Shown here: positions 957-32,066 of the stretch, one piece after another
Numbering within the stretch: position 1 is the stretch's first letter
Layout: every line of letters begins with the position of its first letter
Virus record (IMG/VR): IMGVR_UViG_3300025889_000277
Location: 1-40,659 of that record
Direction: 5' to 3' (one strand)
DNA from: a virus
DNA: 40,659 nt
Translations under genes and position numbers: made by a program
The notes under the pieces: model-generated
The model's input: only the letters and a program-made list of their open reading frames with translations
Databases searched by the model: none
Told to the model about the DNA's origin: nothing

Positions 957-1350
957 ATTTTAAGGCGAGGAACCTGTTGAATCTCTATAGAGATGAGCAA
1001 TTGCCTGCCCGTACCCTTACCACCTTGGCCAGAGGTCGTCTCCCATCTGATTCGTGGTGAGGCCTTAGCTAACGCCTCATTCAGCACCGGTGATTTCAAT
1101 GGACTGGTTCACTGACTGCTCGGTACTGAGTGAGGATTTGACGAGAGCTGAGCGTTATAGACCTCTACGGATTCAGCCTTTCATTAGTCCATTGCTCGTA
1201 TAGTCACCTCACATGGAGAAGCTTTTTGACGCACAGTCACGCCCTAGTCTCCTCCTTAGAAATTGTGGCTAAGCCACCCTGTGTTAAGCGTCTACCTATT
1301 CCGCCATCAGTACCGATGAGTCAATGAACTGGGGCTGTATCGCCAGCCCC
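957..1350 (-). ncRNA. Non-coding structured region of about 400 bp
   Basis: No open frame of note exists on either strand between two leftward genes. The region looks more GC-rich than its flanks and is full of inverted repeats. Seen directly: GGGGCTG/CAGCCCC at 1331-1337/1344-1350; GTGGC/GCCAC at 1265-1269/1273-1277; TGAGGC/GCCTCA at 1058-1063/1074-1079; a 9-bp long-range match 1097-1105/1186-1194; an 8-bp match 1122-1129/1307-1314; and GTGAGG/CCTCAC at 1130-1135/1207-1212. A further hairpin (938-956) closes the downstream side. Strand is inferred from the neighbours. Single helices of 8-9 bp can occur by chance in 400 nt; the tRNA-like core listed separately is stronger. No family such as RNase P RNA could be matched. 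Confidence 0.5.
1122..1314 (-). ncRNA. tRNA-Leu-like element, two halves split by an insert
   Basis: On the minus strand, bases 1306-1288 read TGGCGGAATAGGTAGACGC, nearly identical to the position 8-25 segment of bacterial tRNA-Leu (D-arm GCG/CGC). The seven bases before it, GTACTGA, pair perfectly with TCAGTAC at 1129-1123, exactly where a 3' acceptor strand should be. That strand is preceded by TCAAATCCTCAC, resembling a T-loop and 3' T-stem. A matching 5' T-stem strand, GTGAGG, sits at 1212-1207. Between the halves are far more bases than a tRNA needs, and I could not fold a canonical anticodon arm. It may be a tRNA with an insertion, a decayed tRNA, or a tRNA-mimic in a larger RNA. No CCA is encoded. 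Confidence 0.4.
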
Positions 1351-30441: not shown

Positions 30442-30594
30442 TTATTGGGTAGGAAGGTTTTTTCTTTTTCCATCTTCCATTGCCTCCCATAAAAAGACAA
30501 GGTGCATGGTGATATCAGCGTCACAAAGGACGCATCTGTAGTTTGCTCGCCCCCTTCTAACGTACCGATCTAAAGGGTGGTTGCAGTCTTTCAT
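30442..30594 (-). CDS. Small zinc-finger protein overlapping the nucleotidyltransferase gene
   Basis: 50 aa, 'MKDCNHPLDRYVRRGRANYR', then CVLCDADITMHLVFLWEAME. Cys4, His6, Cys21 and Cys24 could bind one zinc. Its start lies 38 bp inside the end of the nucleotidyltransferase gene in another frame, so translation is probably coupled. It fills a region that would otherwise be empty, and its leader (TTTCTAATCCAA) fits. Confidence 0.55.
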   Translation of the reverse strand: MKDCNHPLDRYVRRGRANYRCVLCDADITMHLVFLWEAMEDGKRKNLPTQ

Positions 30595-31660
30595 TTGGAT
30601 TAGAAATATGATGACAAACGTATTTTTTCTCTTTACAGACTATACAATAAAATTTTAAGGGAAAATGCTCGTAGCAATACCCCCATAATCCTCTTCTTTT
30701 GGGGGGAGGGGTTAAATAGGTTTCCATAATCCAAGCGTCCCAGAACTCTCTATCTGGAGTTTCCGGCAATGAACTTGATTCAACCGCTTTGATTGTTTCT
30801 TCCATGAGTTTTTCGAGCTTCTCTTGAATTGTGGGATAGTCCAAGGTTCCAACCTTTATTTCTGTCAAAAACTGAGCCTCTTTTAGTGGAAAAACAATCT
30901 CCCCAGTCTCTGCGAGTTCCTTCAGCTGGAAACAACACCTGAAAGCATGACTTACGGCTTTCCAATCAATCCCCTGGTTTTCCATAGCTTTTTTTGACCG
31001 ATCTCCGTATTTCGTATTGAGGTTGTTCAGAGACTCGTTTACATGGAGAACTTGTTTATTGAGCTGAAATTTCTTCCCGAGGATTTCTAAAAACTCTTCC
31101 ATAACCATTTCCCCGTTTCTCCTTGATTCCCCCTTTACCATCCTCACAAACTCAGTTTTCGAGAGATCTTCAACAAATTCTCCAACCAGCTTTTTAGGGT
31201 CTTTGTCCTTAAAAAAATCCAATACCCTATGAAGCTCTCCAAGCCGCGATCCCTTCAGTCCGTATTTTCCCGCCTGCCTTCGGCAATAACCAATATACGG
31301 TTCAACCCTTTTGGAGATGAGCTTACTTCGATTTTTTAAAATAAATTCCCATTCGGGAGAATTATCAACCCACCACTTTTCAGGAGTGAAAAGAAGGTCT
31401 AGGGCATACGTTTGCCCTGTACAGCAATCATCAATGAATTGCCGGAGTTCTTTCCATTCTACGTCTACATCCTCAGAGGTGTTTCTCTCACCAAACTCCT
31501 TTGATCGCCCCTGAACGATGCTGTCCTTCGATCTTTTTAAAAGGATATTTTCAAGAGATTCTTGAAATATTCCCTTGTAGTCCGTATCGGAGGACGGCGT
31601 ATTGGTCCCATACACATGGGAACCGAATTGAGTTTGAAAGATTTTTTTAAAAGTTTCCAT
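30557..31660 (-). CDS. RlaP/Pol-beta-like nucleotidyltransferase
   Basis: 367 aa from the ATG at 31660 (31690 is possible but lies deeper in the upstream gene). 'FGSHVYGTNTPSSDTDYKGIF' (residues 12-32) is the GS...SDxDxxG active-site strand of the Pol-beta superfamily, in the form seen in PF10127 (RlaP), predicted to act in RNA repair. 'AGKYGLKGSRLGELHRVLDFF' and 'KAVSHAFRCCFQLKELAETGEI' also fit the family. The C-terminus adds a Cys/His-rich finger ('CYEHFPLKFYCIVC...CHH'). The neighbour upstream is a Pnkp-like phosphatase, overlapping by 14 bp, which strengthens an RNA- or DNA-end repair role. No ligase is nearby. Confidence 0.8.
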   Translation of the reverse strand: METFKKIFQTQFGSHVYGTNTPSSDTDYKGIFQESLENILLKRSKDSIVQGRSKEFGERNTSEDVDVEWKELRQFIDDCCTGQTYALDLLFTPEKWWVDNSPEWEFILKNRSKLISKRVEPYIGYCRRQAGKYGLKGSRLGELHRVLDFFKDKDPKKLVGEFVEDLSKTEFVRMVKGESRRNGEMVMEEFLEILGKKFQLNKQVLHVNESLNNLNTKYGDRSKKAMENQGIDWKAVSHAFRCCFQLKELAETGEIVFPLKEAQFLTEIKVGTLDYPTIQEKLEKLMEETIKAVESSSLPETPDREFWDAWIMETYLTPPPKRRGLWGYCYEHFPLKFYCIVCKEKKYVCHHISNPNERLQPPFRSVR

Positions 31661-32066
31661 CGGCGACTTGTAAGCAAATAAGACCTTCACTTCTCCACAT
31701 CTCCACTACCTGATTCCTGTCATCCAGCACCAGCCAAACACTATACTTGTCTTTAATGTTCTCTTCGTACAGGCGTTTTTTTATAATCGAATCCTTTTCC
31801 GTGTTCCCCTCCGGTCGCATGAAAAGGTGATCGTATTTGATGTGATGGACTCTCAACCATTCTTCTGTTTCAGGGCGGCATACAGAGTCCCTGCCACTCA
31901 TGAGGATCGTCACAAGACCATCTTCGCATGATTCCTGGATACATTCGAGAAGACGTATAATTGGTACGTTTGGAAGATCCTCTCCAACTCTTTCCCAATG
32001 GAAAGGGCTTCTGTCGCCTTTGTGGGCTAGTGTTCCGTCGATATCTACGATGATGCAGGGTTTCAT
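31647..32066 (-). CDS. Polynucleotide 3'-phosphatase domain (T4 Pnkp-like HAD)
   Basis: 139 aa, HAD fold. 'IIVDIDGTLAH' with Asp8 (nucleophile) and Asp10 (acid-base); 'MSGRD' (56-60) motif II; Lys96 or Lys97 motif III; 'LVLDDRNQVVEMWR' (112-125) motif IV with paired Asp. 'DRSPFHWERVGEDLPN' and 'GLICLQVADGNF' are marks of the phosphatase half of T4 polynucleotide kinase. The kinase half is absent. It would remove 3'-phosphate or 2',3'-cyclic phosphate from broken RNA or DNA ends. It overlaps both neighbours (4 bp upstream, 14 bp downstream). Confidence 0.88.
   Translation of the reverse strand: MKPCIIVDIDGTLAHKGDRSPFHWERVGEDLPNVPIIRLLECIQESCEDGLVTILMSGRDSVCRPETEEWLRVHHIKYDHLFMRPEGNTEKDSIIKKRLYEENIKDKYSVWLVLDDRNQVVEMWRSEGLICLQVADGNF

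Follow-up and report, generated by a model that had tools for sequence, protein, structure and literature searches.

Does a phage that carries a fragment of tRNA-Leu sequence in a non-coding region encode the relic of a tRNA, an interrupted tRNA or an RNA of another kind? The question is raised by the virus record IMGVR_UViG_3300025889_000277, whose whole sequence of 40,659 nucleotides is called here the window. The original prediction, made from the letters alone, placed there the separated halves of a tRNA-Leu-like molecule, arranged as in tmRNA or an intron-bearing tRNA, and considered a tRNA mimic, a decayed tRNA or a new chimeric RNA, with a possible link to RNA-repair enzymes encoded by the same genome. 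A tRNA mimic or chimeric RNA is what the present analysis supports; separated halves, decay, tmRNA, an intron and the link to RNA repair are not supported. The locus almost certainly encodes an intact tRNA-like RNA (TLR, a name coined in the present analysis) built on a tRNA-Leu-like frame, whose parts are collected in Table 1.

Table 1. Features of the window, with those of related loci in the last row.
Feature	Position	Strand	Description
Non-coding region	between ORFs 1357-1983 and 678-938	minus (both ORFs)	no ORF of at least 80 aa
Hairpin GGGGCTG/CAGCCCC	1331-1350	minus	strong; after the ORF 1357-1983 stop and before unit A; no T tract
Unit A	1107-1329	minus	tRNA-like RNA inside an outer helix of 11 bp, GTTCATTGACT/AGTCAGTGAAC; inverted repeat I1, fold
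TLR	1313-1122	minus	single intact unit in the R1 alignment
Acceptor stem, 5' strand GTACTGA	1307-1313	minus	pairs with 1129-1123; all pairs formed in the R1 alignment
U8 and tRNA-Leu-like D-arm TGGCGGAATAGGTAGACGC	1288-1306	minus	D-stem GCG/CGC
Cargo 1 (first variable insert)	1213-1287	minus	75 nt; replaces anticodon and variable arms; 3' end is A plus the invariant U48 (1213)
Helix P2 in cargo 1	1215-1255	minus	1255-1249 (GGAGGAG) with 1221-1215 (CTTCTCC); 3' strand stops 2 nt before the T-stem, as in relatives
T-stem, 5' strand GTGAGG	1207-1212	minus	6/6 T-stem pairs
U54-G55 of the T-loop	1206-1205	minus	
Cargo 2 (second insert)	1141-1204	minus	64 nt; in the T-loop between U54-G55 and C56; starts ACTATACGAG, ends CTCGT
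Helix P4 of the T-loop insertion	1142-1198	minus	1198-1195 (CGAG) with 1145-1142 (CTCG)
Rest of T-loop CAAAT and T-stem, 3' strand CCTCAC	1130-1140	minus	
Acceptor stem, 3' strand TCAGTAC	1123-1129	minus	
Discriminator (position 73)	1122		C in the window
Unit B	886-1105	minus	220-nt structured RNA; closing helix like that of unit A; no tRNA-like core; inverted repeat I2
RlaP nucleotidyltransferase	30557-31690	minus	member of the noted RNA-repair pair
PNKP-type phosphatase domain protein	31647-32066	minus	member of the noted RNA-repair pair
mcrA RNA (RF03010)	L011 1687-1737; L016 1780-1829		Listeria phages, shortly downstream of the TLR

The predicted D-arm is indeed present, and its 17-base core, which reads exactly GGCGGAATAGGTAGACG, has a single occurrence in the window even when up to three mismatches are allowed (0.04 expected). 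The 7-bp acceptor pairing proposed together with it is perfect (7/7 pairs), can be extended by G1314-C1122 and closes straight onto U8 and the D-arm, and on the other side U48 leads into a 6-bp T-stem next to the acceptor. The T-arm had seemed incomplete because the T-loop TG/CAAAT is split (at the slash) by 64 nt, and its 5' strand, far upstream of the loop end, had been missed. From the D-arm to TCAAATCC (1141-1134) the distance is 146 nt, and not the insert of about 100 nt first estimated; that the anticodon arm is not canonical was seen correctly, the 75-nt insert containing no such arm. A covariance model built from 60 relatives with the window excluded (R1) aligns to the TLR with 49.7 bits and an E-value of 1.8e-12 (1101 bases searched, filters off), and with default filters on the whole window it recovers the 5' part only (29.5 bits, E 1e-5). 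Moreover, none of 100 dinucleotide shuffles folds as well as the 401-nt region (z = -4.08). ARAGORN reports no tRNA or tmRNA in the window and Rfam 15 gives no match there at gathering scores, including RF00005 (tRNA) and RF00023 (tmRNA), with weak miRNA and snoRNA matches only in the region at E-values up to 10; neither program thus supports a tmRNA or an intron-bearing tRNA.

Sensitive blastn searches of the region against 50,697 phage records returned short matches around the D-arm only, many of them in unannotated DNA of Bacillota phages. Some further matches are true tRNA-Leu genes (Klebsiella BIS47, Erythrobacter XM05), called by ARAGORN and scoring 24-36 bits with R1; the same model gives 57-84 bits to the TLRs of named phages and 27.6 to an insert-less remnant in phiFL2A. 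By pattern scan, at least 120 stretches were obtained from IMG/VR and 91 from 84,980 bacterial and archaeal genomes, the latter mostly of Bacillota with a few metagenome-assembled genomes otherwise labelled. The family comprises at least 195 distinct members with an uninterrupted T-loop (type I) and about 40 with a T-loop insertion of the kind found in the window. As the pattern used to gather type I fixed the D-arm core and GGTGCAAATCC, their identity within the set is by construction, and their variability was judged from 34 model-found matches alone (model trained on the type I set), the D-arm being identical in 26 of them; at locus L305, the D-stem is changed yet still paired. In the set of 195, from which duplicates and members with less than 60 nt of flank were left out, U8 was also fixed.

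Pairing was not a selection criterion for these 195 members, and the acceptor is nevertheless complete (7/7) in 162 and the T-stem (6/6) in 182, with 119 different acceptor sequences; U48, which the pattern did not fix, is present (as T) in 195/195. In an alignment of 60 type I members preselected for full stem pairing (A1), all 7 acceptor pairs and four of the six T-stem pairs change on both sides, 241 cells show such double changes versus 58 in shuffles, and sliding the partner by one column lowers pairing from 99.9% to 37-41%. The stems covary and are not conserved in sequence, hence it is the RNA structure that is selected. Covariation of these two stems in relatives had been singled out as the point on which the original prediction could fail, and its presence supports a tRNA mimic or chimeric RNA. 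Neither separated halves nor a decayed tRNA agrees with two perfectly paired stems, a T-arm that is complete once the insertion is seen and a frame kept in more than 200 relatives. In favour of a decayed tRNA-Leu, or of a chance assembly of tRNA-like pieces, it can be said that the long insertions block recognition by ARAGORN, but this reading is hardly credible: the E-value of R1 on the window as well as the compensatory changes among relatives argue against both decay and chance.

The frame retains the acceptor stem, D-arm, T-stem and elbow residues of a tRNA, and its anticodon and variable arms are replaced by an unrelated insert. The kept residues U8, A14, A15-U48, G18, G19, U54, C56 and A58 are those of the tRNA elbow. 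TLRs thus have in common with tRNA-Leu the D-arm sequence, U8, G18-G19, A14/A15-U48, the T-loop fold and the 7-bp acceptor stem, and they depart from it by the absence of an anticodon arm, an insert of 23-152 nt (median 60 nt in the 195 type I members), G55 for U55, an inconstant position 73 and a 6-bp T-stem, which makes a 13-bp acceptor-T stack, while ordinary tRNAs have one of 12 bp. These features bear on the idea of an aminoacylated RNA, i.e., a leucine acceptor used in a tmRNA-like manner or as a non-ribosomal amino-acid donor. Such a function would agree with the tRNA-Leu D-arm and with an A at position 73, the base present there in 109 of a set of 185 type I members, and G55 recalls staphylococcal tRNA-Gly species serving cell-wall synthesis, of which a G55 T-loop is a mark. 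However, T (48), G (14) and C (14) occupy position 73 in the other members of this set, and the position shows little preference in the T-loop-inserted subtype (A15, C11, G9, T6 of 41) and is C in the window; the inserts, or cargoes, have no strong motif in common, and a stack of 13 bp is unusual. The variability of position 73 in both subtypes led us to reject a general role in leucine charging, and aminoacylation in any of these forms appears quite improbable.

The insert itself is not without order. Helix P2 recurs within it, and exactly 2 nt separate the end of its 3' strand from the T-stem (score of 12.9 versus 8.2 in shuffles, and lower at neighbouring positions, for 154 non-redundant inserts). 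No strong shared motif, Shine-Dalgarno-like or other, was found in the cargoes, GGAGG occurring in 10 of 197 versus 16.2 in shuffles. In many members a pseudoknot can be seen that joins the insert start to the P2 loop, but overall it exceeds shuffles weakly (11.2 versus 10.4) and is not claimed. With its tRNA-like ends, long insert and helix leading into the insert, tmRNA (RF00023) resembles a TLR, whereas the TLR frame is that of tRNA-Leu and not of tRNA-Ala, has an ordinary D-stem, is much shorter and gives no tmRNA match in Rfam; no tag reading frame was apparent in TLRs, whose cargoes were compared for shared motifs.

Regarding the split T-loop, a pattern for this arrangement matched 53 IMG/VR stretches, and 41 of the 51 parsed sequences (window included) have an insertion of more than 30 nt at the same site, the other 10 having none or one of 9 nt. 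The insertions mostly begin with ACTATACGAG and end with CTCG followed by G or T. For an alignment of 38 sequences of this subtype (A4), near-duplicates and sequences with fewer than 6 acceptor or fewer than 6 T-stem pairs were left out; all four pairs of helix P4 change on both sides, with 90.5% of cells paired, and over all helices 182 cells show both-side changes versus 48 in shuffles. In the window, the insertion lies after position 55, begins with ACTATAC and contains P4: its TLR is a member of a second, conserved subtype. The covariance model of this subtype (R2) gives it 104.5 bits, a score that is not independent as the window is in the training set, and a search for a close relative of the window's own T-loop insertion found none.

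An insertion point that is constant, after position 55, might be expected of an intron-bearing tRNA or of a substrate of phage RNA-repair enzymes, in which removal of the T-loop insertion would restore a tRNA, and the window does encode RlaP and a PNKP-type phosphatase, the pair to which the original prediction had drawn attention. RlaP is however encoded in 1 of 38 T-loop-inserted contigs and 1 of 45 plain-subtype contigs, some of these contigs being fragments. Furthermore, the inserted helix is conserved, and removal of the T-loop insertion would not supply the missing anticodon arm, making this reading very improbable. A tRNA carrying a group I or other intron at the place of the first insert was rejected as well, since the D-arm and T-arm flank this insert and no anticodon arm lies outside it.

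Comparison of related loci reveals what happens to the inserts. The Enterococcus phages EFDG1 and VEsP-1 both have the acceptor GTCACTG, the D-arm TGGCGGAATAGGTAGACGC (one base off in EFDG1), a 152-nt insert, the T-loop TGCAAAT and CAGTGAC; their inserts are 99.3% identical and their flanks 51%. Conversely, between EFDG1 and 21C1 or SHEF16 both flanks are 94-98% identical, with 95-98% for 21C1, and the inserts, of 152 versus 77 nt, 44%. In phage 113 the 3' flank alone is kept with respect to EFDG1, and phiFL2A, with flanks 95-97% identical to those of VEsP-1, has a 51-nt core without insert (EFP01 was left out of these comparisons). More broadly, 185 members with 150-nt flanks were compared and pairs kept if at least one flank reached 80% identity. 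Among the 31 pairs obtained, 18 have unrelated inserts (35-55%; unrelated baseline median 48%) and 13 have inserts 89-100% identical, with none between 55% and 89%. In the 18 swapped pairs, the tRNA-like frame is 94-100% identical, and in every one of them one flank is conserved (at least 80%) and the other is not; both flanks reach 80% in only three pairs, which have the same insert. Likewise, in 17 members with the acceptor GTGCTTG and the T-stem GTAGGG in common, insert length is 31-78 nt and the median similarity of the inserts is 0.43. Related loci have thus kept the frame, whereas the insert has not drifted but has been replaced wholesale.

Since conservation is limited to one flank in the 18 swapped pairs, this exchange could be recombination that uses the frame as a joint. 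Taken further, the conserved D-arm and T-arm sequences would serve as a recombination joint and nothing else, the variety of inserts being a by-product. We consider this distinctly unlikely, as the insert alone changes between EFDG1 and 21C1 or SHEF16, and as the stems covary instead of keeping their sequence. The reading towards which we lean, by a modest preponderance, is that of a natural "tRNA scaffold" with an exchangeable RNA cargo acting in trans. The TLR would be transcribed together with its neighbours, and both its ends would be trimmed by host tRNA-processing enzymes, a step that in the window may follow cleavage of the outer stem; its likeness to tRNA would confer stability. Processing by RNase P is not assured because the 13-bp acceptor-T stack (7+6) departs from the ordinary length. 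The inserts would be the working part, directed in trans at targets of the host or of competitors that differ between hosts, and they may be exchanged like other arms-race genes; an anti-defence or host-takeover RNA would be our first guess. Action in trans can only be inferred, since no target of a cargo was found and the cargoes share no strong motif.

TLRs are found in named phages of Bacillota (SPP1, phi3T and phages of Enterococcus, Listeria and lactobacilli), in prophages and in metagenomic viruses. Phages of Lactobacillus, Weissella, Listeria, Brochothrix and Bacillus (SPP1) have this frame with other stems and other inserts, and a TLR is also present in Hujiaoplasma phage zrk29-2. Using R1, TLRs were detected in 22 of 201 sampled genomes of the L. 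brevis family and in 18 of 198 of the order of Listeria. Their neighbourhood brings in the main rival of a trans-acting cargo, namely a cis-acting element in which the frame would be a processing or protection site of a polycistronic phage mRNA (an RNase P cut or an exonuclease block) and the cargo a filler. TLRs are usually collinear with their neighbours, 116 of 135 type I loci having the upstream ORF on the TLR strand, and a cis role fits too because the next ORF on this strand lies at most 60 nt beyond the TLR end in 24 of 156 loci (19/135 of type I and 5/21 of the T-loop subtype). In temperate Bacillota phages, a late transcription activator often lies upstream (upstream families phrog_36, phrog_248 and phrog_2198 count 29, 21 and 16 of 110, counts that may overlap) and downstream, HNH endonuclease and terminase small-subunit families are met most often (each at most 8/108); phiFL2A, moreover, keeps its version without insert. 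Nevertheless, the TLR lies inside a tmRNA/tRNA array in Enterococcus Schiekvirus and is apparently a separate gene in five Listeria species, P2 is conserved in the insert, where a filler would not need it, and so is the inserted helix of the T-loop subtype. A cis-acting element therefore appears unlikely to us, though less so than the other rivals.

The TLR of Listeria phages is immediately preceded by rliG or rli62 and closely followed by mcrA RNA; rliG shares 42 nt with the start of the TLR, and all three (RF02415, RF01486 and RF03010, respectively) are separate families that adjoin the TLR. In one study, rliG and rli62 are assigned to prophage A118 of strain EGD-e and rliG is placed among the sRNAs raised in macrophages (PMC3556495), which speaks for transcription close to the TLR; another lists rliG in a distribution table (PMC2996996). 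The chromosomal TLR of the five Listeria species is located between azlD and a convergent membrane-protein gene (L152, L174, L179, L187 and L209), the ORFs of L209 include no apparent phage gene, and the TLR gene apparently stands outside prophages. The azlCD genes function in branched-chain amino-acid export. By eye, TTGCAT...TATNAT is conserved upstream of these TLRs, and directly after them comes a long hairpin bearing A and T tracts; the two look like a promoter and a terminator of their own. An automated scan of the locus found neither by its criteria, we think because the first hexamer matches at 3/6 positions and the T tract lies within the stem.

A natural scaffold with an exchangeable cargo would have a counterpart in the laboratory. 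In the engineered tRNA scaffold, an RNA of interest replaces the anticodon arm to give a processed and stable RNA; in TLRs, too, the anticodon arm gives way to foreign RNA, and they differ in being natural, based on tRNA-Leu and provided with a second insertion point in the T-loop. TLRs may also be likened to the T4 stable RNAs C and D, which stem from a tRNA cluster of that phage and have no assigned function. Plant RNA viruses encode tRNA mimicry at the 3' ends of their RNA genomes, whereas TLRs are encoded in the genomes of DNA phages. In Rfam 15, no family covers a TLR save for the 42-nt overlap with rliG (window and loci L003-L006, L008-L020, L027, L070, L074, L140, L152, L209, L231, L245 and L253), TLRs are not recognised by ARAGORN, and a search of the open-access literature found no description of them. 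The TLR hence appears to be unannotated, though present in about 1 in 10 sampled genomes of two Bacillota groups and in SPP1 and phi3T. A bolder version of the carrier-and-cargo reading, which we put forward tentatively and as rather doubtful, is that in phages and some bacteria the tRNA-Leu-like shell would be a stable carrier of exchangeable RNA effectors with two cargo bays, the anticodon-arm site and the T-loop, whose cargoes phages infecting the same group of hosts would swap, using them as weapons or shields against the defences of the host or against rival phages. If TLRs do carry cargoes, they constitute an overlooked modular system of RNA effectors and the natural form of a laboratory tool; if they act in cis, they are still a new RNA element of phage operons. 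As SPP1 and phi3T infect Bacillus subtilis, the question is testable in that host.

Some further features of the window and of the family deserve mention. The non-coding region holds two tandem structured units of about 220 nt each, A and B, both closed by a similar imperfect helix of 25-30 bp, and the outer helix of unit A is possibly a processing stem. If ORF 678-938 is read from the listed GTG, its start falls within unit B; an ATG lies immediately beyond the unit. No convincing match to R1 or R2 was obtained in it and no relatives were found, a 17-base pattern retrieving 15 stretches without wider shared context; a 26-base match in L330 lies inside a 491-aa reading frame and was taken as chance. 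The protein encoded at 1357-1983 has one distant relative (L002), in which a search with R2 detected no TLR. The IMG/VR contig L027, which carries a TLR, is linked to the window by a short D-arm match only. Two or more TLRs lie close together in one phage at L095, L274, L273 and L021, L274 having one plain TLR and one with a T-loop insertion. Finally, just 3' of several TLRs (SPP1, i.e., L010 just after 1608, as well as L073, L019 and L021), there are extra tRNA-like stretches with a normal T-arm (GGTTCRANTCC) and little or no room for an anticodon arm.
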